A DNA stretch of 64,000 nucleotides from Pseudomonas hormoni. GTDB lineage: Bacteria; Pseudomonadota; Gammaproteobacteria; Pseudomonadales; Pseudomonadaceae. Shown one piece after another: positions 4,526 to 40,351 of this stretch. The notes beneath the pieces were generated by a model. That model had not been told where the DNA came from, did not search any database, and saw nothing but the letters and a program-made list of their open reading frames with translations. Location of the stretch: the NCBI RefSeq assembly GCF_018502625.1, contig NZ_CP075566.1, positions 1,369,001-1,433,000 of the forward strand, written 5' to 3'. A program made the position numbers and the translations under genes. How positions within the stretch are numbered: the stretch's first letter is position 1; every line of letters starts with the position of its first letter.

Positions 4526-5536
4526 ATGACTGCTGGCCTGCAAGGCTCGTTGATGGTGGACGTCGCCGGTACCTGGCTGACGGCCGAGGATCGCCAATTG
4601 TTGCGCCAGCCCGAAGTGGGCGGCCTGATCATTTTTGCCCGCAACATCGAGCACCCGCGTCAGGTGCGTGAACTGAACGCCTCGATTCGCGCCATTCGCC
4701 CCGATCTGCTGCTGGCAGTGGATCAGGAGGGCGGTCGCGTCCAACGCCTGCGCCAGGGCTTTGTGCGACTGCCGGCCATGCGCGCCATTGCCGACAATCC
4801 AAACGCCGAATACCTTGCCGAACAGTGCGGCTGGATCATGGCCACCGAAGTATTGGCCGTCGGCCTCGACCTGAGCTTTGCCCCGGTGCTGGATCTGGAT
4901 TACCAGCGCAGCGCCGTGGTCGGCACCCGTTCGTTCGAAGGTGATCCGGAACGCGCGGCGCTGCTGGCGGGCGCATTTATCCGTGGGATGAACAGCGCGG
5001 GAATGGCTGCCACCGGCAAGCATTTCCCCGGCCACGGCTGGGCCGAGGCGGACTCCCACGTCGCGATTCCGAATGACGAACGCAGCCTCGACGAGATCCG
5101 CGCCAACGATCTGGTGCCGTTCGCCCGGTTGAGCAAGCAATTGGCCGCCGTCATGCCGGCCCACGTCATTTACCCGCAAGTCGATTCCCAGCCCGCCGGC
5201 TTCTCCCGTCGCTGGTTGCAGGACATCCTGCGCGGCGAATTGCAATTCGATGGCGTTATCTTCAGTGACGATCTGTCGATGGCCGGCGCCCATGTGGTGG
5301 GTGATGCCGCTAGCCGAATCGAAGCCGCCTTGTCTGCCGGTTGCGACATGGGCCTGGTGTGCAACGATCGCGCCGCCGCAGAACTGGCGCTGAGCGCCGC
5401 CCAGCGTCTGAAGGTCAAGCCGTCCGAGCGCATTGCGCGGATGCGCGGCCAGTCGTACGCCAGCACTGAATACCGCCAGGATCCGCGCTGGCTGACGGCC
5501 ATTGGCGCGCTCAAAGACGCTCAACTGATTGAATAA
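4526..5536 (+). CDS. nagZ: beta-N-acetylhexosaminidase NagZ
   Basis: Cytoplasmic GH3 enzyme of peptidoglycan recycling that releases GlcNAc from GlcNAc-anhydroMurNAc peptides. Its products influence AmpR-controlled beta-lactamase. The 336-residue protein carries the substrate loop KHFPGHGWAEADSH, where the His acts in catalysis, and the nucleophile region VIFSDDLSMAGA. DQEGGRVQRL is another family motif. The ATG at 4526 has AAGGA 6 bases upstream. The next gene begins 12 bp after the stop, so the two are probably co-transcribed. Confidence 0.95.
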   Translation: MTAGLQGSLMVDVAGTWLTAEDRQLLRQPEVGGLIIFARNIEHPRQVRELNASIRAIRPDLLLAVDQEGGRVQRLRQGFVRLPAMRAIADNPNAEYLAEQCGWIMATEVLAVGLDLSFAPVLDLDYQRSAVVGTRSFEGDPERAALLAGAFIRGMNSAGMAATGKHFPGHGWAEADSHVAIPNDERSLDEIRANDLVPFARLSKQLAAVMPAHVIYPQVDSQPAGFSRRWLQDILRGELQFDGVIFSDDLSMAGAHVVGDAASRIEAALSAGCDMGLVCNDRAAAELALSAAQRLKVKPSERIARMRGQSYASTEYRQDPRWLTAIGALKDAQLIE

Positions 5537-6428: not shown

Positions 6429-9122
6429 TCAGCGCTTTTCGAGTTTCTCCGGCAACGGCGCAAACAACGCCTCAATATCATCACTCTGCAACTTCCAGTC
6501 CCCGGCCTTGCGCCCATCCAGCACGCCCGCCGCCAGATCGGATTTTTCCTTCTGCAGGTGCTGAATCTTCTCTTCCACCGTGCCTCGGGCAATCATCTTG
6601 TAGACGAACACCGGTTTCTCCTGGCCAATGCGGTACGCACGGTCAGTTGCCTGGTTTTCTGTCGCCGGGTTCCACCACGGGTCGTAGTGAATCACCGTGT
6701 CCGCCTCGGTCAGGTTCAGGCCCACACCACCTGCCTTCAAACTGATCAGAAAGATCTGACGCTTACCACTCTGGAATTCCTTCACCGGCGCACGGCGATC
6801 ACGGGTCTGTCCCGTCAGCAGCGCATATTCAACACCGCGTTTTTTCAGTTCAACCTCGATCAGCGCAAGCATCGAAGTGAACTGGGAAAACAGCAGAATC
6901 CGTCGACCTTCCTCGAACAATTCCTCCAGCATTTCCATGAGGCTATCGAGCTTGCCCGAGGTGCTTCCGCGAGCCGGCAGCGCAGCGTCGTTGACCAGGC
7001 GCAAATCGCAGCACACCTGACGCAGCTTCAACAGCGCCTCAAGAATGATGATCTGGCTGCGCGCCACGCCCTTGCGGGTGATTTCGTCACGCACCTTCTT
7101 GTCCATGGCCAGGCGCATGGTTTCGTACACATCGCGTTGGGCTTCGTTGAGCTCGACCCAGTGGATGATCTCAGTCTTCGGCGGCAACTCCGTCGCCACC
7201 TGCTCTTTGGTCCTGCGCAACAGAAAGGGTTTGATCCGACCATTGAGGTGCTGAAGTCTGACTTCACTGGCGCGCTTTTCAATCGGCACGCGGTAATCAC
7301 GGTTGAAGCTCTTCACATCGCCGAGCCAGCCGGGCAGCAGGAAGTGAAACAGCGACCACAGTTCGCCCAGGTGGTTTTCCAGCGGTGTGCCACTCAGGCA
7401 CAGGCGCTGGCGCGCATTCAGCTCGCGCGCAGCCTGGGCAGCCTTGCTGTTGGGGTTTTTTATGTACTGCGCTTCGTCCAGCACCAGGACGTGCAACGGC
7501 TGAGCGGCGAGGCGTTCGACGTCTTTGGGCAGCAGCGCATAGGTGGTCAGGATCAGGTCGTAATCGCCCAGCGTGTCGAAATGCTTCTTGCGACTGGCGC
7601 CGTACAGCGCCAGCACTTTGAGTTGCGGCGTGAAGTGAGCTGCTTCGTCGAGCCAGTTCGGGATCAGGCTGGTGGGCATCACCACCATGCAAGGTCGATC
7701 GAGGCGACCAGCGTTTTTCTCGCTGAGAACGTGCGCCAGGGTCTGTAGGGTTTTACCCAGTCCCATATCGTCCGCGAGAATCCCGCCGACTTCCAGTTGC
7801 CGCAGCGATTGCATCCAGCTCAAGCCTTCCAGCTGATACGGGCGCAGCGTTGCGTTCAAGCCTTCCGGTGCAGTCGCGGTGTAATCCTTGATGTCCCGCA
7901 GGCGCTGGGCAAACGTGCGGATCTGCTCGCCACCTTCCCAGAGCAGCGGCAGGTCTTCCAGCGGATTCAGGCGCGTGGCGTCGGCCTTGCTCAGGCGCAG
8001 CGTGGTCTCGCCGGGTTCTTGCAGGTAGAACTCGCCGAGGGTCGCCAGTACCGGTTTCAATCGGCCAAAGGGCAGGGCGACTTGCAGCGGCCCATACTCG
8101 GAGTTCGGGCGATTGGGGATGTTCACCAAGATCAACTCGTCGTCGCGACGTCGGGCGAGGCGTTCCGGGTTGAGGATTTCGGTGTGGGAGCGCATCAGGT
8201 TCAGGAGGATGGGCAGCAAGCTCAGCCGCTCGCCGTTGACGATGATCCCCAGTTCCAGATCGAACCAATCACGTTCCGGCGCCTGTTCGACGGTGGCGTA
8301 CCAGTCGTCCACGGCGGTCAGGTCGAAGCCGAAATCCTCGTCGATCTGCAACTCCCAGCCTTGAGTGCGCAGCTTCGGCAGCTCATTGAGGGTGAAGGTC
8401 AGCCAGGCGCTGTCGTTGACCATCTCGTAGAGTTCACCGGCACTTTCCGGCAGGGCTTTACTTTGACGGGTGGCGACTTTGAAGCCGAGGATTCGCAGTT
8501 GTTCCCTGTAGGCCTGTTCGACTTCCGGGTGACGTTTTATCCGTAGTGTCTGCGTCTCCTGGCGAATCAGGATGTCGGCGTTTTTTTGTCCGCTGACGTA
8601 TTCATCCAGATAGCTGAAGGACAGCGCTGCACGATGCTGAATGTAGCGCTGCATCTTGCCGTTGCGCGGTTCGAAGGCGCTGAACTCGATGCTCGCCAGC
8701 CACAGGCGCGGCACCGGTTGCACATTGTCCACCAGCACTTGCGGCGGCGCTTTAGGGCTGCGGTTTTCCAGTACCGCCTGAAGTTTTTCCAGCAGTTCGG
8801 CGTCTTGCGCGGCAGCGGGGTAGGCGAGGGTTTCCTGCACTTTCAACAGCACCGCTGCGCAATGTTTGCAGTTGCTGCGAACCGGGCAGGTGCACGTAGC
8901 GTCGACCATCAGCAAGGTGGATTTGGCCGACTCGCGCAGGCGAATGGTCTGACGGTAAACGTTACCGCCAGAACCTTCGCACGCGGCGGTAATGGTCGCG
9001 TCGCCGACCTCGACGATCCTGACGCGGTTTTCCAGCGCGTAGCGGCGGCCACGCTCCAGACTTTGTTCCTTGAATCGGCTGACCCATGAAGGTGCCAGGG
9101 GTTTGCTCAGGGTCGCAGGCAT
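6429..9122 (-). CDS. SNF2-family helicase with SWIM zinc finger
   Basis: An 897-residue Swi2/Snf2 ATPase likely acting on protein-DNA complexes. The N-terminus carries a SWIM zinc-binding motif (CTCPVRSNCKHC, about residues 77-88). A long middle region follows. The helicase core begins near residue 430: LRPYQLEGLSWMQ, Walker A DDMGLGKTLQT, Walker B VLDEAQYIKN, SGTPLENHLGELWSLF, and motifs V-VI LKAGGVGLNLT and DRAYRIGQ. It resembles the HepA/SNF2 group more than RapA proper. It is 11 bp downstream of csiV and so probably ends the mfd-csiV-helicase transcript. Its biological role is unknown. Confidence 0.9.
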   Translation of the reverse strand: MPATLSKPLAPSWVSRFKEQSLERGRRYALENRVRIVEVGDATITAACEGSGGNVYRQTIRLRESAKSTLLMVDATCTCPVRSNCKHCAAVLLKVQETLAYPAAAQDAELLEKLQAVLENRSPKAPPQVLVDNVQPVPRLWLASIEFSAFEPRNGKMQRYIQHRAALSFSYLDEYVSGQKNADILIRQETQTLRIKRHPEVEQAYREQLRILGFKVATRQSKALPESAGELYEMVNDSAWLTFTLNELPKLRTQGWELQIDEDFGFDLTAVDDWYATVEQAPERDWFDLELGIIVNGERLSLLPILLNLMRSHTEILNPERLARRRDDELILVNIPNRPNSEYGPLQVALPFGRLKPVLATLGEFYLQEPGETTLRLSKADATRLNPLEDLPLLWEGGEQIRTFAQRLRDIKDYTATAPEGLNATLRPYQLEGLSWMQSLRQLEVGGILADDMGLGKTLQTLAHVLSEKNAGRLDRPCMVVMPTSLIPNWLDEAAHFTPQLKVLALYGASRKKHFDTLGDYDLILTTYALLPKDVERLAAQPLHVLVLDEAQYIKNPNSKAAQAARELNARQRLCLSGTPLENHLGELWSLFHFLLPGWLGDVKSFNRDYRVPIEKRASEVRLQHLNGRIKPFLLRRTKEQVATELPPKTEIIHWVELNEAQRDVYETMRLAMDKKVRDEITRKGVARSQIIILEALLKLRQVCCDLRLVNDAALPARGSTSGKLDSLMEMLEELFEEGRRILLFSQFTSMLALIEVELKKRGVEYALLTGQTRDRRAPVKEFQSGKRQIFLISLKAGGVGLNLTEADTVIHYDPWWNPATENQATDRAYRIGQEKPVFVYKMIARGTVEEKIQHLQKEKSDLAAGVLDGRKAGDWKLQSDDIEALFAPLPEKLEKR

Positions 9123-24538: not shown

Positions 24539-25891
24539 TTATTTAACGCACTTGACGAATCGAATGGTGAACGAAGTCCACTGCGGGTTCGAATGACAAG
24601 TAATGTCACCACCATGGGCGCGAACAATGGAGCGCGTAATGGCAAGTCCCAGACCCGCATGCTCACTGATGCCTTCCCGGCGTGCCGGATCGGCCCGATA
24701 GAAGCGATCAAACAGTCGTGGAAGCAGTGCTTCGGAAATGGCTTCGCCCGTGTTCTCGATGCTCAGGCTCAAGTGATCGGGGGCGTCAGTGATTCGCACC
24801 CGGACTTGCCCGCCCGACGGCGTAAAACGCATTGCGTTATCCAGCAGATTCGAGAGCGCCCTGCGCAACATGCTGCGATCACCCTCCATGCAAGCGCTGC
24901 CTTCTCGGCTCAGCGTTACCTCTGCGTCCTCGGCCAGTGGTGCAAAAAACTCCAGCAACACGTCCACTTCGTCCGCCAGTTCCAGCGGTTCTCTCTTGGG
25001 CATCAACAAACCATGGTCAGCCTTGGCCAGGTACAACATGTCGTTGACCAGTTGCGCCATCCATTGCAGTTCTTCGAGGTTGCTGTGCAGCGCTTCGCGA
25101 TAATCCTCGATGGGCCGCGGGCGGGTGAGGGTGACCTGGGTGTGGGTCAGCAGGTTCGACAACGGTGTGCGCAGTTCATGGGCGATGTCGGCGGAAAACG
25201 CCGAGAGCCGCTGAAAAGAGTCGTCGAGGCGTCCGAGCATGGCGTTGAAGTGGTGGGCCATTTCCGCGAGTTCTGGCGGCATGTCGTCTTCGGGCAGGCG
25301 AGCGTTGAGCGATTGCGCGGAAACACCGCGGGCGACCGCACTCATGCGTCGCAATGGGCGCAACCCGCTGCGCGCCGCCCAGGCACCGAGCAGCGCCGTG
25401 GCCAGGGCGGACAACCCCACAGTGAGCCAGATCAAGTGTTGCATGCGTTGCAGAAAATGCTGGTGATGGGTGATGTCCAGCAGCAGGGTCAATTGCGGTG
25501 AGTCAGGCTTGTCCACAAACAATGGCGCATTCAGGACGCGGTAGTCGGTGTCGTTGTCATTGATGGTTGATAAGCCCGGTTTGTGCGGAAGTTTATTGGG
25601 CAGGCTCGCGGCGCTGTCGTACCAACGCTTGCCGTCGCTGCCAGAAATGCGTAGGGACAAATCAGCCTGACGATTCAATTCATCCGCCAGTCTGACTTCG
25701 CTTTCACTGGACTGAAGATCGTGAAGCGCCCGACGCAAACCAATCAACTTGCCGTCCAGCAACTGTTGGTCCAGTTCAACAAAATGCGCCTCGCTGGCGC
25801 GGCTGAACAGCACCCCGGCAAACAACGAAACCACGGCGGTGCAGGCGGCAAACAGCAGCGCCAGGCGGCTGCTCAAGGATAGTCGGCGCAT
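24539..25891 (-). CDS. copS: heavy-metal sensor histidine kinase (CopS/CusS type)
   Basis: Membrane sensor for periplasmic copper, 450 residues. Helix 1 lies at about 8-30 and helix 2 at about 150-175 (LIWLTVGLSALATALLGAW), enclosing a periplasmic sensor. HAMP follows (RPLRRMSAVARGVSAQSLNARLP). The phospho-His is in AFSADIAHELRTPL. ATPase boxes include LSNLLDNAMRFTPSGG, RLFDRFYRADPAR and GLGLAITRSIVRAHGG. It overlaps copR by one base (TGATG), so translation is coupled. The position near a divergent cupredoxin supports copper as the signal. Confidence 0.88.
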   Translation of the reverse strand: MRRLSLSSRLALLFAACTAVVSLFAGVLFSRASEAHFVELDQQLLDGKLIGLRRALHDLQSSESEVRLADELNRQADLSLRISGSDGKRWYDSAASLPNKLPHKPGLSTINDNDTDYRVLNAPLFVDKPDSPQLTLLLDITHHQHFLQRMQHLIWLTVGLSALATALLGAWAARSGLRPLRRMSAVARGVSAQSLNARLPEDDMPPELAEMAHHFNAMLGRLDDSFQRLSAFSADIAHELRTPLSNLLTHTQVTLTRPRPIEDYREALHSNLEELQWMAQLVNDMLYLAKADHGLLMPKREPLELADEVDVLLEFFAPLAEDAEVTLSREGSACMEGDRSMLRRALSNLLDNAMRFTPSGGQVRVRITDAPDHLSLSIENTGEAISEALLPRLFDRFYRADPARREGISEHAGLGLAITRSIVRAHGGDITCHSNPQWTSFTIRFVKCVK

Positions 25892-26571
25892 CAGGCAGGC
25901 CGCTCTTCAAGGACATACCCCATGCCGCGCACGGTGTGGATCAATTTGTTCGGGAACTCGTCGTCGATTTTCAGGCGCAAACGGCGGATGGCGACTTCGA
26001 TGACATTGGTGTCGCTGTCGAAATTCATGTCCCAGACCTGAGAGGCGATCAGCGACTTGGGCAGCACTTCGCCCTGACGGCGCAGGAGCATTTCCAGCAG
26101 GGCAAATTCCTTGGCGGTCAGGTCGATGCGTTGACCGCTGCGTTCGACGCGGCGGCGGATCAAATCCAGGCGCAAATCGGCCAGTTGCAGGCTGGTTTCC
26201 TGTGGCGAGGCGCTGCCACGGCGCAACAGGCTGCGGACCCGGGCCAGCAGTTCGGAGAAGGCGAACGGCTTGACCAGGTAATCGTCGGCGCCGAGTTCGA
26301 GGCCGTGGACCCTGTCCTCCACCGCATCTCGCGCTGTCAGAAAAAGTACCGGTGTATCGAGGCCGGCGCTGCGCACGGCTTGCAGGATTTGCCAGCCATC
26401 GCGCCCCGGCAGCATCACATCGAGGATCAGCAACGCATATTCACCACTCAGCGCCAATTGTTGACCGGTGCTGCCGTCGGCCACCAGATCGGTGTTGAAC
26501 CCGGCCTCGGCCAAGCCCTGGCGCAGGTAGTGGCCGGTTTTCGGTTGGTCTTCGACGATCAGCAGTTTCAT
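25891..26571 (-). CDS. copR: OmpR-family response regulator (CopR type)
   Basis: The 226-residue partner of CopS. It has a receiver domain with phospho-Asp in [14 protein letters not shown], Thr in [13 protein letters not shown] and Lys in [15 protein letters not shown]. The C-terminal winged helix runs from [17 protein letters not shown] to [27 protein letters not shown]. It activates copper-tolerance genes in relatives. An inverted repeat resembling a CopR/CzcR box lies between this gene and the divergent cupredoxin gene. The product starts at an ATG with no strong ribosome site. Confidence 0.9.
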
Positions 26572-30839: not shown

Positions 30840-32021
30840 ATGCCAAAAACCAGTGCCACGCTGCTGATAATCGATGATGACGAAGTAGTGCGCGCGAGCC
30901 TCGCCGCCTATTTGGAAGACAGTGGTTTCAGCGTCTTGCAGGCCAGCAATGGCCAGCAGGGTCTTCAGGTATTCGAGCAAGACAAGCCCGACTTGGTCAT
31001 CTGCGATCTGCGCATGCCGCAGATGGGCGGACTCGAACTTATCCGCCAGGTCACCGAGCGGTCACCGCAAACCCCAGTGATTGTGGTGTCGGGTGCCGGC
31101 GTGATGAACGACGCGGTCGAGGCCTTGCGCCTGGGCGCAGCGGATTACCTGATCAAGCCTCTCGAAGATCTGGCCGTGCTCGAGCACTCTGTGCGCCGGG
31201 CCCTGGATCGCGCGCGCCTGCTGCTGGAAAACCAGCGCTACCGCGAGAAGCTGGAAAAGGCCAATCGCGAGCTCGAAGCCAGCCTGAACCTGCTCCAGGA
31301 AGACCAGAACGCCGGTCGCCAGGTGCAGATGAACATGCTGCCGGTCAGCCCCTGGACCATCGACGAATTCCAGTTTGCTCACCAGATCATCCCGTCGCTG
31401 TACCTGTCGGGTGATTTCGTTGACTACTTTCGGGTCGACGAGCGTCGGGTAGCCTTTTACCTGGCGGACGTTTCCGGTCATGGCGCCTCTTCAGCGTTCG
31501 TGACCGTACTGCTGAAATTCATGACCACGCGCTTGCTGTTCGAGTCCAAGCGCAGCGGTACATTGCCGGAATTCAAGCCTTCAGAGGTCCTTGGCCATAT
31601 CAACCGGGGCCTGATCAGTTGTAAGCTGGGTAAACACGTCACAATGGTCGGTGGAGTCATCGACGAGGAGACAGGTTTGTTGACCTATAGCATCGGCGGT
31701 CATTTGCCGTTGCCTGTGTTGTACACGCCAGACAGTGTCCGTTATCTGGAAGGGCGTGGCCTGCCGGTGGGCCTCTTCAATGAAGCCACCTACGAAGACC
31801 ACGTGCTTGAATTGCCGCCGACGTTCAGCCTGACGCTGATGTCTGATGGCATTCTGGACCTTTTGCCAGAACCTACACTCAAAGAAAAAGAAGCGGCTTT
31901 GCCCCAACGGGTCAAGGCAGCGGGCGGCACCCTGGATGGGTTGCGGCAGGTTTTTGGATTGGCCACGCTAGGGGAGATGCCGGATGATATCGCCCTGTTG
32001 GTGTTGAGCAGGAATCTTTGA
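30840..32021 (+). CDS. rssB: response regulator with PP2C-type phosphatase output (RssB)
   Basis: A 393-residue protein. The receiver domain (about 1-120) has phospho-Asp in LVICDLRMPQMGG and Lys in ADYLIKPLEDL. It continues into a coiled coil (REKLEKANRELEASLNLLQ) and a SpoIIE/PP2C-like phosphatase domain (SGDFVDYFRVDERRVAFYLADVSGHGASSAFV, LMSDGILDLLPEP). In Pseudomonas this pairs with the STAS protein RssC in a partner-switch thought to affect RpoS. The ATG at 30840 begins the receiver; an in-frame ATG at 30732 has an AAGG nearby but would add 36 unmatched residues. The stop overlaps the rssC start by one base. Confidence 0.88.
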   Translation: MPKTSATLLIIDDDEVVRASLAAYLEDSGFSVLQASNGQQGLQVFEQDKPDLVICDLRMPQMGGLELIRQVTERSPQTPVIVVSGAGVMNDAVEALRLGAADYLIKPLEDLAVLEHSVRRALDRARLLLENQRYREKLEKANRELEASLNLLQEDQNAGRQVQMNMLPVSPWTIDEFQFAHQIIPSLYLSGDFVDYFRVDERRVAFYLADVSGHGASSAFVTVLLKFMTTRLLFESKRSGTLPEFKPSEVLGHINRGLISCKLGKHVTMVGGVIDEETGLLTYSIGGHLPLPVLYTPDSVRYLEGRGLPVGLFNEATYEDHVLELPPTFSLTLMSDGILDLLPEPTLKEKEAALPQRVKAAGGTLDGLRQVFGLATLGEMPDDIALLVLSRNL

Positions 32022-32503
32022 TGAGTACCGGTAGAATCCAGTTCGCCGAGCAGGACGGCACCTTCGTCCTGAAGTTCGTCGGTGAAGTTCGCCTGACCCT
32101 GTGTTCGGCGTTGGATGCGACTATTGAGCGGATCTTCACGGCGTTGAACTTCAACGCGATCGTGATCGACCTGACCGAAACCCGCAGCATCGACAGCACC
32201 ACCCTTGGCCTGCTGGCCAAACTGTCGATCCTGTCGCGGCAAAAGGTCGGCCTGCTGCCGACCGTCGTCACCACCCACGAAGACATCACCCGTCTGCTGC
32301 AGTCCATGGGCTTCGAGCAGGTGTTCAACATTGTTGATCGCCCGATCCCGTGCCCTGAATGCCTGACCGACCTGCCAGACCAGGATCAGTCCGAGGAAGT
32401 GGTGCGGATCAAGGTGCTCGAAGCGCACAAAATCCTGATGGGGCTGAACGATTCGAATCGTGAAGCGTTCCATGATCTGGTGAACGCCCTCGAGCGTCAC
32501 TGA
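32021..32503 (+). CDS. rssC: STAS-domain anti-sigma factor antagonist RssC
   Basis: A 160-residue protein. The STAS domain (about 1-105) carries the regulatory Ser in DLTETRSIDSTTLGLL, which a kinase would phosphorylate and RssB would dephosphorylate. A C-terminal extension contains CPECLTDLPDQ, a two-Cys motif. AGGA lies 7 bases before the ATG, and TGATG couples it to rssB. No anti-sigma kinase gene is adjacent, so the partner is elsewhere. Confidence 0.87.
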   Translation: MSTGRIQFAEQDGTFVLKFVGEVRLTLCSALDATIERIFTALNFNAIVIDLTETRSIDSTTLGLLAKLSILSRQKVGLLPTVVTTHEDITRLLQSMGFEQVFNIVDRPIPCPECLTDLPDQDQSEEVVRIKVLEAHKILMGLNDSNREAFHDLVNALERH

Positions 32504-36741: not shown

Positions 36742-37527
36742 CTATTTGGTCTCGGGCGTAGCTATCCACTCACCCAAGACCTTCTGGTATTTCCCCGTCA
36801 CCTTAGCCAGATGCAACCACTGATCCACATACAACTTCCACGTCATATCATCACGCGGCAGCAAATACGCCTTCTCCCCATACTGCATGAACTGACCCGG
36901 ATTCACCGCGCACAATCCGGGCTTGAGTTTCTGCTGATACAACGCTTCCGACGCATCCGTAATCATCACGTCTGCCTTCTTGTCCAGCAGCTCCTGAAAG
37001 ATGGTCACGTTGTCATGAAGGCTCAACTGCGCCTTGGGCAGGAAGGCGTGAACAAAGGCTTCATTGGTCCCACCAGCCGGTTCGACCAACCGAACCGAAG
37101 GCTGGTTGATCTGCTCGACAGTCTGGTACAGCGCCTGATCCTCGCAGCGCACCAACGGGACTTTACCGTCGACATCCAGCGTGGTGCTGAAGAAGGCCTT
37201 TTTCTGCCGCTCAAGCGTGACCGAGATCCCGCCCATGCCGATGTCGCATTTGCCCGCCAGCATGTCGGGCATCAGGGTTTTCCAGGTGGTCTGCACCCAC
37301 TCGACCTTGACGCCCAGGCTGTCAGCCAGCGAGCGGGCCATGGCGATGTCGATTCCCGAGTATTCGCCATCCTCGGCTTTGAATGTGTAGGGCTTGTAAT
37401 CACCCGTGGTGCATACGCGCAATTGGCCTTGCTGGATGACGTTGTCCAGATGCGAAGGCTCTGCCTGAGCGGTAAACGAGAAGGCAAGCAGCCCGCCAAG
37501 CATCAATGTGTGTTTTACAGTTTTCAT
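36742..37527 (-). CDS. PheC-like periplasmic protein (cyclohexadienyl dehydratase / SBP family 3)
   Basis: A 261-residue exported protein with signal MKTVKHTLMLGGLLAFSFTAQA. The start of the mature domain, GQLRVCTTGDYKPYTF, and the parts GGISVTLERQKKAFFST, LVEPAGGTNEAF and EKAYLLPRDD closely follow P. aeruginosa PheC as I recall it. PheC converts prephenate and arogenate in the periplasm. The fold is also that of amino-acid-binding proteins, so a transport receptor is possible, but no permease is adjacent. It lies 49 bp downstream of the PAS kinase on the same strand and may share its transcript. Confidence 0.75.
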   Translation of the reverse strand: MKTVKHTLMLGGLLAFSFTAQAEPSHLDNVIQQGQLRVCTTGDYKPYTFKAEDGEYSGIDIAMARSLADSLGVKVEWVQTTWKTLMPDMLAGKCDIGMGGISVTLERQKKAFFSTTLDVDGKVPLVRCEDQALYQTVEQINQPSVRLVEPAGGTNEAFVHAFLPKAQLSLHDNVTIFQELLDKKADVMITDASEALYQQKLKPGLCAVNPGQFMQYGEKAYLLPRDDMTWKLYVDQWLHLAKVTGKYQKVLGEWIATPETK

Positions 37528-37576: not shown

Positions 37577-38743
37577 TTAAGCGGTGCCCAGCGGAAAATA
37601 AACACTAAACACCGTCCCACTCTCCAGACTCGAACTCACCGAAACATCGCCGCCATGCGCCTGGGCGATTTCCCGAACAATAAACAACCCAAGCCCCACG
37701 CTCCGCACATCACTGTCAGTCTCGGCACCTCGGGTCATCGGTTGAAACAGCACTGCCATCAACGCCTCAGGAATAACCGGTCCGTGGTTTTGCACCGACA
37801 CAACGGCTTTATCTTCTTCCAGTCGGGAAGTAATCGTGATCGCTTGTTTCAAATCCCCGTAGGCCACGCTGTTGGCCACCAGGTTTCCAATGATTTGCTG
37901 CACGCGATCAGCATCAAAAACAGCAGGGCCGGAACCAAAAGACGCGTGCAGCAGAATCGCGTCAGGAAACGCGACGCGCAGTTCGTCGACGCTGCGACTA
38001 ACGAATGCATGCAAGTCCTGCGCGGAAGGGGCAATAGCAATGCCACTCCCGACCCTGACCAGCGCAAAGTCCAGCAGGTCAGCAATCATGCGCTCGGCGC
38101 GGTCTGCCGACTGACCGATGTGGCCGAGTAACTTGGTTTCCTTGGCGGTGCGGTCGCCTCGGGCGAGGATGTCGGAGGCCATTTTGATCGCGGTCAGCGG
38201 GTTTTTCAGGTCGTGGCTGACGATGGCGACCATTTGCTCGGCGAAGGACGCACGACGCTGGGCCTTTTCGTAAGCCAGGTTCAGTTCGGTCTGGGCTCGC
38301 TGAAGAGCGTTTTCGGCAGCGGTTTTTTCGTGCAGCAGGCCTTCGGCGATTTTTCGTGCGTTGAGCAGTTCACGTTCGTACTTGTCGCGGTCGGTGGTGC
38401 CGAACAGCGCCAGTTCATTGACTGCGCCGCTGGCGTGTTCGCGCCGGACGCCGTTGAGCAGCATGGTGACGATGCGTTTGTCTTGATGGACCAGGTCAAG
38501 TTTTACTTCGGCGACCGAGCCTTGCATTCGCATCAGCGGCGCCCAGTGGGTTTGATGGAAAATCCGTCCGCCCATGGTCAACAGGTCTTGAAAACGCTTG
38601 CCGCACAGCTCTGACTGAGTGAAGCCGATCCCGTGGCTGAACGTCTGATTGCTGCGCAGGATCGTGCCATCCTCTTTCGTCACCACCAATCCGCAGGGTG
38701 CTTCTTCGAACAATGTCTGCGGGTCTAACTGATCAGTCGACAT
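37577..38743 (-). CDS. PAS-domain sensor histidine kinase paired with RsbQ-like hydrolase
   Basis: A 388-residue soluble kinase. The N-terminal PAS domain (about 8-115) contains LFEEAPCGLVVTKEDGTILRSN and the FQDLLTMGGRIFHQTHW part, which recalls the PAS domain of Bacillus RsbP. A coiled coil follows (about 120-168). The phospho-His is His177 in VAIVSHDLKNPLTAI. ATPase boxes are IGNLVANSVAYGD, VSVQNHGPVIP, LFQPMTRG and GLGLFIVREIAQAHGG. There are no membrane helices and no receiver domain. The gene begins inside the 3' end of the hydrolase gene (11-nt overlap), so both are made together. No response regulator is adjacent. Confidence 0.88.
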   Translation of the reverse strand: MSTDQLDPQTLFEEAPCGLVVTKEDGTILRSNQTFSHGIGFTQSELCGKRFQDLLTMGGRIFHQTHWAPLMRMQGSVAEVKLDLVHQDKRIVTMLLNGVRREHASGAVNELALFGTTDRDKYERELLNARKIAEGLLHEKTAAENALQRAQTELNLAYEKAQRRASFAEQMVAIVSHDLKNPLTAIKMASDILARGDRTAKETKLLGHIGQSADRAERMIADLLDFALVRVGSGIAIAPSAQDLHAFVSRSVDELRVAFPDAILLHASFGSGPAVFDADRVQQIIGNLVANSVAYGDLKQAITITSRLEEDKAVVSVQNHGPVIPEALMAVLFQPMTRGAETDSDVRSVGLGLFIVREIAQAHGGDVSVSSSLESGTVFSVYFPLGTA

Positions 38744-39548
38744 GCGCGCCTACCCACGGCGACAGGAAGCTGGCCATGGCGTCGGAGCAGGCGCCGGGCG
38801 CGCTCATGTGCGGACAGTGGCCGACGTTGTCGACCACGCACAGCGTGCTGTTGGGAAGTACGGCGTGCAGGTATTCACCCACGGCCATCGGGGCGATGAG
38901 GTCGTCAGTGGATTGCAGGATCAGCGTTGGCGTGGTCAGGCCGGCAACGTCCTGGCGGTTGTCCGACAGGAACGTTACGCGCGCAAATTGCTTGGCGATC
39001 TCGGGTTCGGTGCGGCAGAAACTGTTGGTGAGCTCTTCGCCCAGCGCCGGTTGACCGGGCGCGCCCATGATGACCGGGGCCATCGTGCTGGACCAACCGA
39101 GGTAGTTGCTGTCGAGGGTGTCGAGCAACGAATGGATGTCTTCGAGTTTGAAACCACCCACGTAGTCGTCGGAATCGATGTAGCAGGGCGACGGACCAAT
39201 CATCACGTGGGCGGCGATTTTTCCGGGAGACTGGCGATCCGCAAGTGCACCGATCATGGCACTGACGGAGTGGCCCACAAGAATCACCGGGCCGCTGGCG
39301 AACTGATCGACGATTTCACCCAAGTCCTGGGCGTAACCGTTCAGCGAGTTGTATTTGTCCCGGTCGTACGCGCCAAGATCCGACTGGCCCGCACCGACCA
39401 GGTCATACAGCACGACCTTGAAACGACCCGTGAAGTCATTGACGAGATAACGCCACATGGTCTGATCGCAGCCAAAGCCGTGGGAGAAGACCAGCGTTAC
39501 CGGACCCTCGCCCATCACTTTGACGTTGTTGCGATGTTGGAGGTCCAT
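38733..39548 (-). CDS. RsbQ-type alpha/beta hydrolase
   Basis: A 271-residue cytoplasmic hydrolase of the RsbQ/D14/KAI2 branch. The start NNVKVMGEGPVTLVFSHGFG, and the family pieces DLVGAGQSDLGAYD, YAQDLGEIVD and IGPSPCYIDSDDYVGGF, follow RsbQ closely as I remember it. The triad is Ser94 (VGHSVSA), Asp216 (QSTDDLIAP) and His244 (NVGHCPHMS), all present. In Bacillus, RsbQ is required by the PAS-PP2C protein RsbP to signal energy stress. Here the gene overlaps a PAS histidine kinase. The compound it acts on is not known. Confidence 0.9.
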   Translation of the reverse strand: MDLQHRNNVKVMGEGPVTLVFSHGFGCDQTMWRYLVNDFTGRFKVVLYDLVGAGQSDLGAYDRDKYNSLNGYAQDLGEIVDQFASGPVILVGHSVSAMIGALADRQSPGKIAAHVMIGPSPCYIDSDDYVGGFKLEDIHSLLDTLDSNYLGWSSTMAPVIMGAPGQPALGEELTNSFCRTEPEIAKQFARVTFLSDNRQDVAGLTTPTLILQSTDDLIAPMAVGEYLHAVLPNSTLCVVDNVGHCPHMSAPGACSDAMASFLSPWVGAHVD

Positions 39549-39646: not shown

Positions 39647-40351
39647 TCAACGGTTGGTTGTGGATTTCGATGCCGTCGCCACGGTCCCGCTACCACAATT
39701 GATATACGAAGATTTCTTCAACCAGCGCTGATCCGGGTAGTACGAAAACAATAACTGCCCGCCTTTCATCGAATCAATCAGCTTGTGCGCAATCGCCGGC
39801 CGTACAGCCGGGCAGCCCAGGCTTCTGCCGATTCGGCCATTGGCCCGCGCCAGCACCGGGCTGACGTAAGGCGCGCCATGAATCACGATTGCCCGGTCGA
39901 ACGCATTGTCGTTGAAGCCCGGCTCCAGGCCTTCCATGCGCAGCGAATAACCGTTCTGCCCGACATAGCTCTGTTGCGTGCGATACAAGCCTAGGCTGGT
40001 GGCAAAGCTTTCATTCTGATTGGAGAAATTCACGGCCATGTTTTCGCCGCTGTTGCGACCATGGGCGACCAGTTCATGAAACAGCAACTTGCGTTTCTTT
40101 AAATCGAACACCCACAGGCGCTGTTCGGTCGAAGGCAGGGAATAATCAATCACCGCAAGTCTTTGGACAGGAGCAGCACCTTGAGCGATGCTGCATTGCG
40201 AGGCGCGAACGGCGAGGTTAATGACGTTGGCGTTGGCTTTCGGGGCCGCTTTGATGAGGGCGGCCGCGAGTGAATCGGCGTAGGCTAACGGTACGGACAT
40301 TGCAGTCAATAGCAGGGCCGGCAGCAGATAGCCAATACGTAGTGGCGCCAT
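39647..40351 (-). CDS. murein L,D-transpeptidase catalytic-domain family protein
   Basis: A 234-residue exported protein with signal MAPLRIGYLLPALLLTAMSVPLAYA. The catalytic domain holds FSNQNESFATSLGLYRT, AIVIHGAPY and the active Cys in GRSLGCPAVRP, typical of the YkuD-like PF13645 family. It may make or cleave L,D cross-links, or act on lipoprotein-peptidoglycan links. It is divergent, at 81 bp, from a second L,D-transpeptidase, so the two may be co-regulated. Confidence 0.85.
   Translation of the reverse strand: MAPLRIGYLLPALLLTAMSVPLAYADSLAAALIKAAPKANANVINLAVRASQCSIAQGAAPVQRLAVIDYSLPSTEQRLWVFDLKKRKLLFHELVAHGRNSGENMAVNFSNQNESFATSLGLYRTQQSYVGQNGYSLRMEGLEPGFNDNAFDRAIVIHGAPYVSPVLARANGRIGRSLGCPAVRPAIAHKLIDSMKGGQLLFSYYPDQRWLKKSSYINCGSGTVATASKSTTNR

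Follow-up and report, generated by a model that had tools for sequence, protein, structure and literature searches.

The genome of Pseudomonas hormoni contains a gene for an RsbQ-type hydrolase that overlaps the start of a gene for a PAS histidine kinase and, judged by sequence, this pair is a member of the RsbQ-PAS class, with most marks of the class kept and the proline at the position of RsbP P86 missing. It is reasonably probable that the two genes form a module in which the hydrolase is a receptor for a small, presumably lactone-like molecule, docks on the PAS domain and switches the kinase. The analysis started from a window of 64,000 nucleotides (the whole stretch analysed, NZ_CP075566.1, positions 1,369,001 to 1,433,000), in which the pair and its direct neighbours are located as follows:

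36742-37527, family 3 solute-binding protein, downstream of the pair
37577-38743 (-), PAS histidine kinase, non-hybrid, 388 aa, with Pfam PAS, HisKA and HATPase_c domains and catalytic motifs
37775-37789 (-), non-canonical G1 box of the kinase, residues 319-323, NHGPV instead of DxGxG
38213-38215 (-), codon of the phospho-acceptor His177 in an HDLKNPL motif, coordinates from the sequence
38414-38725 (-), N-terminal RsbP-type PAS domain (aa 7-110), from Pfam and the alignment to RsbP
38733-38743 (-), 11-nt overlap of the hydrolase end with the kinase start
38733-39548 (-), alpha/beta hydrolase of the RsbQ type (271 aa) with the triad S94/D216/H244, from the open reading frame and PDB matches
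39647-40351, YkuD-type L,D-transpeptidase, upstream of the pair

The best solved relative of the hydrolase is RsbQ from Bacillus subtilis (1wom, E 2.2e-76), with similarity over the full length, and alignment to this structure assigns the triad to S94, D216 and H244, as the original prediction had it. Both open reading frames, and with them the 11-nt overlap, lie where they were predicted. The proposed kinship to plant strigolactone and karrikin receptors holds as well, since KAI2 (~1e-56) and D14 (~1e-49) are among the further PDB matches, together with Olei00960 (E 1.7e-69). In an alignment of 141 hydrolase rows, S94 and D216 are present in all and H244 in 140; conservation around C27 is biased, as the 80 named loci used here were retrieved with a motif around this residue. 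None of the NCBIfam models listed reached its cut-off, neither for the hydrolase nor, among the best 25 of 81 matches, for the kinase. Scans for promoters and terminators found no excess over shuffled sequences.

The Pfam domains of the kinase (PAS 7-110, HisKA 169-227, HATPase_c 277-386), the HDLKNPL motif and the alignment to RsbP sustain the prediction of a PAS kinase with phospho-His177 and an RsbP-type PAS domain. The RsbP reference sequence of this alignment agrees at 10/10 positions with the 2011 paper on such modules (PMC3183031). The residues C17, V20, L55, R60 and F62 of the P. hormoni PAS domain correspond to RsbP C10, L13, L48, Q53 and F55, and H63, H66, P69 and E79 to C56, Y59, P62 and E72, while a threonine occupies the P86 position, so that the proline of the 75% consensus is missing. 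Nadezhdin, Brody and Price described 45 RsbQ-PAS pairs in 2011, in which the PAS domain is connected to PP2C phosphatases in Gram-positives, to kinases (three of them hybrid) in Gram-negatives and to diguanylate cyclases in both (PMC3183031). According to the same source, alanine at L48, F55, Y59 or E72 gives a null phenotype in B. subtilis RsbP, His or Tyr at Y59 is, as I read its figure legend, the class consensus, and C10, L13, Q53, C56 and P86 are conserved at the 75% level (PMC3183031). The P. hormoni pair fits the class with its RsbQ homologue immediately upstream, with L55, F62, H66 and E79 at the four alanine-null positions, and, on my reading of the legend, with C17, V20, R60 and H63 at the distinguishing residues C10, L13, Q53 and C56. 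The kinase form, which had been listed among the open questions for Pseudomonas, was already described for Gram-negative bacteria (PMC3183031). The word 'Pseudomonas' is absent from the main text of that paper. The suggested sensing of energy finds no support either; the 2011 paper itself calls this assumption perhaps gratuitous, and it left open what these modules sense and, for bacteria other than B. subtilis, what they act on (PMC3183031).

The module is concentrated in the genus Pseudomonas and patchy within it. With the hydrolase as query, 110 matches were found in 102 of 298 Pseudomonas genomes, and with the PAS domain 103 matches in 96 genomes; a PAS match lies directly downstream on the same strand for 97 of the 110 hydrolases, in 91 genomes. 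The predicted conservation of the pair across Pseudomonas therefore holds where the hydrolase is present (97/110), yet its occurrence is patchy (91/298 genomes). Of 350 genomes sampled from the same taxonomic class, three, P. hormoni included, had a match at 1e-45. The spacing in the 97 pairs ranges from -7 to 57 nt, with one pair at 265 nt, and the P. hormoni value of -7 is found in four; these distances are measured between matched parts, and many PAS matches start at residue 6-10. The 13 remaining hydrolases comprise one with 67% identity and a 12-member group with 41-46% identity. The former (G202, C1:1499069-1499857) is a lone RsbQ homologue with no PAS partner in the stretch fetched. All members of the latter have an open frame for a PAS protein directly downstream (eight were read, four were assigned by motif and place), and the three of these 12 partners that were scanned are GGDEF proteins, as is the partner in one locus of another family (L010). 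Among the 80 named loci, a PAS partner was present in 77 and not found in L180, L186 and L187. Hybrids of kinase and receiver account for 24 of these 77 partners, and for none in the 39 Pseudomonas loci.

In some bacteria the hydrolase, the PAS domain and the kinase are joined in one protein. A search with the joined query gave four such proteins among the best 120 matches (P0166, P0201, P0202 and P0238). A further search with P0238 matched 924 proteins, and 43 of the best 120 have both hydrolase and kinase Pfam domains, although in one of them, P0201, HisKA alone represents the kinase. P0238 and P0243 are from named Polaromonas strains. Single-chain proteins of this type also include P0286, P0290 and P0316. 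A quick tree of 62 hydrolases, 19 of them fusions, needs three changes of the fusion state, two of which are forced by starred branches. Hence there were at least two separate events of fusion or fission, gain and loss being indistinguishable on this tree. AlphaFold2 models of P0238 and P0166 reached a mean pLDDT of 83.3 and 81.8, respectively, with a pTM of 0.46, and the linker between hydrolase and PAS domain is of low confidence (block means 43 and 55), for which reasons I do not claim an interface from them. In P0238 the PAS domain is followed by one continuous helix (390-454), whereas in P0166 this helix is interrupted by a low-confidence break at 435-444. Among the papers listed in a literature search on RsbQ with histidine kinases, fusion proteins or PAS, no title deals with RsbQ-PAS-kinase fusions.

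The PAS residues were compared in 117 distinct hydrolase-linked kinases (69 from the 80 named loci, 47 from other loci, and P. hormoni). Numbered as in RsbP, Phe 55, Glu 72, Pro 62 and Thr 58 are invariant and a basic residue occupies position 53 throughout; Cys at C10 and His at Y59 are each present in 116, and Leu at L48 in 110. Position 56 varies (H 85, Y 15, Q 6, L 6, S 2, W 2, F 1), Pro at the P86 position is present in just 50, and a DIT motif after the PAS domain is found in none of the 117, the P. hormoni kinase among them. In six PAS kinases without a hydrolase neighbour, E72 is lost in all and C10 in four, one of which (L056) has its N-terminal part out of register. These six form one clade, so that the loss of E72 counts as a single event. 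Five of the six genomes have no hydrolase match, and the sixth (G277) has a pair of its own elsewhere.

The invariance of the F-alpha residues and the existence of natural fusions lead me to favour docking. Under this reading, a small, probably lactone-like molecule, perhaps resembling a butenolide, would enter the active site of the hydrolase, which would then dock on the PAS dimer, at its F-alpha face and the helix next to it. Docking would change the signalling helix and so switch the kinase, which would autophosphorylate on H177, and the phosphate would pass to a receiver encoded elsewhere. In Bacillus, the PAS domain of RsbP binds RsbQ and F55A breaks the binding (PMC3183031), and a published AlphaFold2 complex places RsbQ on the PAS domain plus linker (PMC12143880). 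Of the 45 published pairs, 36 have a coiled-coil linker that is 21 residues or longer (PMC3183031).

The 2011 paper proposed two models, either delivery of a product to the PAS domain or a hydrolase that is itself the sensor docked on it (PMC3183031). By the first of these, the true sensor would be the PAS domain, whose pocket would receive a product made by the hydrolase. I consider this rather unlikely here; in its favour are the triad, kept in 140/141 rows, and the basic residue that all 117 kinases have at position 53. This position probably faces the pocket, and its basic residue would also fit a ligand shared inside the PAS domain. Signalling in B. subtilis also needs the catalytic triad (PMC3183031). 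However, position 56, which probably also faces the pocket, varies while F55, Thr 58 and P62 are invariant. Nor does a triad prove that the product is the output, as the plant receptors KAI2 and D14 retain theirs as well.

At the Asp position of the G1 box, all 92 scorable non-hybrids among the hydrolase-linked kinases (of 93, one being unscorable) have Asn, whereas the 24 hybrids all keep the Asp; read from these sequences, one sensing module drives two types of kinase. The second Gly of the box is kept in just two of the 92. Activity is not assured for a G1 box without the usual Asp and second Gly, and a core that acts mainly as phosphatase or as inactive scaffold, its output being the removal of phosphate or a protein contact, would agree with these counts. 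I nonetheless regard this as unlikely. H177, both Asn residues of the N box and the G2 Gly residues are retained in P. hormoni, and the nearest solved kinase domain (chain 9rcc, E 3e-29) has, by alignment, Asn at the same place. The His of its HDLRNPL motif is at 513, as is H513 of BphP from Pseudomonas aeruginosa, which phosphorylates AlgB, encoded elsewhere, in vitro (PMC6932827). By analogy, the P. hormoni kinase is probably active. The two nearest kinases in the P. hormoni genome also have Asn at this position (by eye), and neither has a receiver match within 9 kb. One of the two is soluble, carries an RsbRD_N domain and resembles the kinase studied here in its core (L193, 1492-2619 (-), 1828081-1828740 in its own genome).

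It is very improbable that the PAS domain is instead a sensor of gas or redox state, with a flavin or a heme at H63 as its cofactor and the hydrolase as a helper. The PAS profile has two weak matches in the PDB; one of these, 3ewk (E 2.6e-4), covers just the N-terminal half and is presumably a FAD-binding PAS domain. H63 aligns with RsbP C56, which has been equated with the heme ligands H77 of DOS and H194 of FixL (PMC3183031). However, the PDB matches stop short of the F-alpha region, and His at position 56 is present in just 85 of the 117 hydrolase-linked kinases, in contrast to all six kinases without a hydrolase neighbour, while Leu occupies it in eight of nine GGDEF forms. As this residue varies in the family, heme is unlikely as its general ligand, though conceivable in P. 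hormoni, which has the His. A LOV-type flavin motif was not seen in the P. hormoni PAS domain by eye. That the two genes are merely chance neighbours with unrelated functions and an accidental overlap is practically untenable, as adjacency in 97 of 110 cases and one-piece proteins outweigh the fact that the genes around the pair differ from genome to genome.

A receiver gene does not adjoin the P. hormoni pair, in agreement with the prediction that an adjacent response regulator is missing; the nearest are 5.5 kb (30840-32021) and 11 kb (25891-26571) away. The genes that come into question here and in relatives are:

30840-32021 (+), RssB-type response regulator with receiver and SpoIIE/PP2C phosphatase (NF045505, 764 bits over 700)
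32021-32503 (+), STAS protein adjoining the RssB gene, only a candidate member of the hydrolase-kinase module
8251-8652 (in L066), 4597-4983 (in L165) and 4589-4993 (in L183), upstream single-domain receivers in relatives

A gene pair of an RssB-type receiver-phosphatase and a STAS protein, the latter here presumably RssC-like, controls the stress sigma factor in Pseudomonas. That the kinase feeds this nearby pair in P. hormoni, as a split RsbP, is nevertheless highly doubtful. Among 20 further pair loci with wide flanks the linkage recurs once, and this one is from a close relative (G120) and thus lends no independent support. In four Pseudomonas genomes (G003, G058, G157 and G170), a single-domain receiver is located 104-174 nt upstream of the hydrolase, and in two Comamonadaceae (L165 and L183) a different-looking receiver lies 4-14 nt upstream; these receivers apparently belong to two families. 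A profile from four relatives, searched against the 298 genomes, gave seven best matches (E 1e-73 to 2e-56), of which four are probably the query rows themselves. Each of the seven precedes a hydrolase gene in the same orientation, at a distance of 104-174 nt in four cases and of 1.8-4.0 kb in three. The next matches (6e-54 and weaker) are mostly unlinked to a hydrolase. The P. hormoni genome has no close copy of this receiver (best match 1.7e-18), and I therefore do not name a partner. Six long regulators of the genome were scanned as AlgB candidates (E 1e-150), and one of them is NtrC. Candidate regulators of the kinase are single-domain receivers, AlgB-like regulators and RssB.

The idea that the pair replaces a phytochrome was rejected, as a PHY domain is present in 87 of the 91 genomes with a pair vs. 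101 of the 207 others, a comparison not controlled for kinship. P. hormoni is one of the four pair genomes without this domain.

RsbQ-PAS kinase modules as a kind are already known, and the P. hormoni pair is ordinary as a kind but useful as a system. What is added here are the one-piece proteins, the upstream single-domain receivers and the kinase core with Asn in the G1 box, none of which is mentioned in the available part of the 2011 paper (PMC3183031). Pseudomonas species are genetically easy hosts for these modules, and the natural one-piece proteins, with hydrolase and PAS domain on the same polypeptide, lend themselves to structural studies and to screens for the ligand. The similarity of the core to BphP indicates which regulators should come first in tests. 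A wider reading, which I offer only tentatively, is that these are bacterial receptor kinases of the KAI2 family, in which the hydrolase would bind a butenolide-type signal from the environment or from plants and pass it by contact into two-component signalling, in Polaromonas-like bacteria within one protein. This is based on the kinship to KAI2, on the fusions and on a 2024 report in Current Biology, according to its title on RsbQ as the means by which B. subtilis perceives butenolides. Should the ligand prove to be a butenolide, plants and soil bacteria would read the same cues with receptors of one family.

Compared with known systems, the P. hormoni pair is closest to the RsbQ-PAS kinase modules of 2011, with which it shares the upstream RsbQ, the N-terminal RsbP-type PAS domain, the kinase output and the lack of a DIT motif, and from which it differs by the Thr at the P86 position. 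With RsbQ-RsbP of B. subtilis it has in common a hydrolase that is similar over its full length (E 2e-76) and keeps the triad, as well as C10, L48, F55, P62 and E72 of the PAS domain; however, its output is a kinase instead of a PP2C phosphatase, and no link to sigma-B is known. The kinase core resembles that of P. aeruginosa BphP in the HDL(R/K)NPL motif and the Asn of the G1 box, whereas BphP has a phytochrome input and the P. hormoni genome is without a PHY domain. KAI2 and D14 belong to the same hydrolase family and have the same triad, but their plant partners, MAX2 and SMAX1, are unrelated to the PAS kinase that is the genomic partner in P. hormoni.
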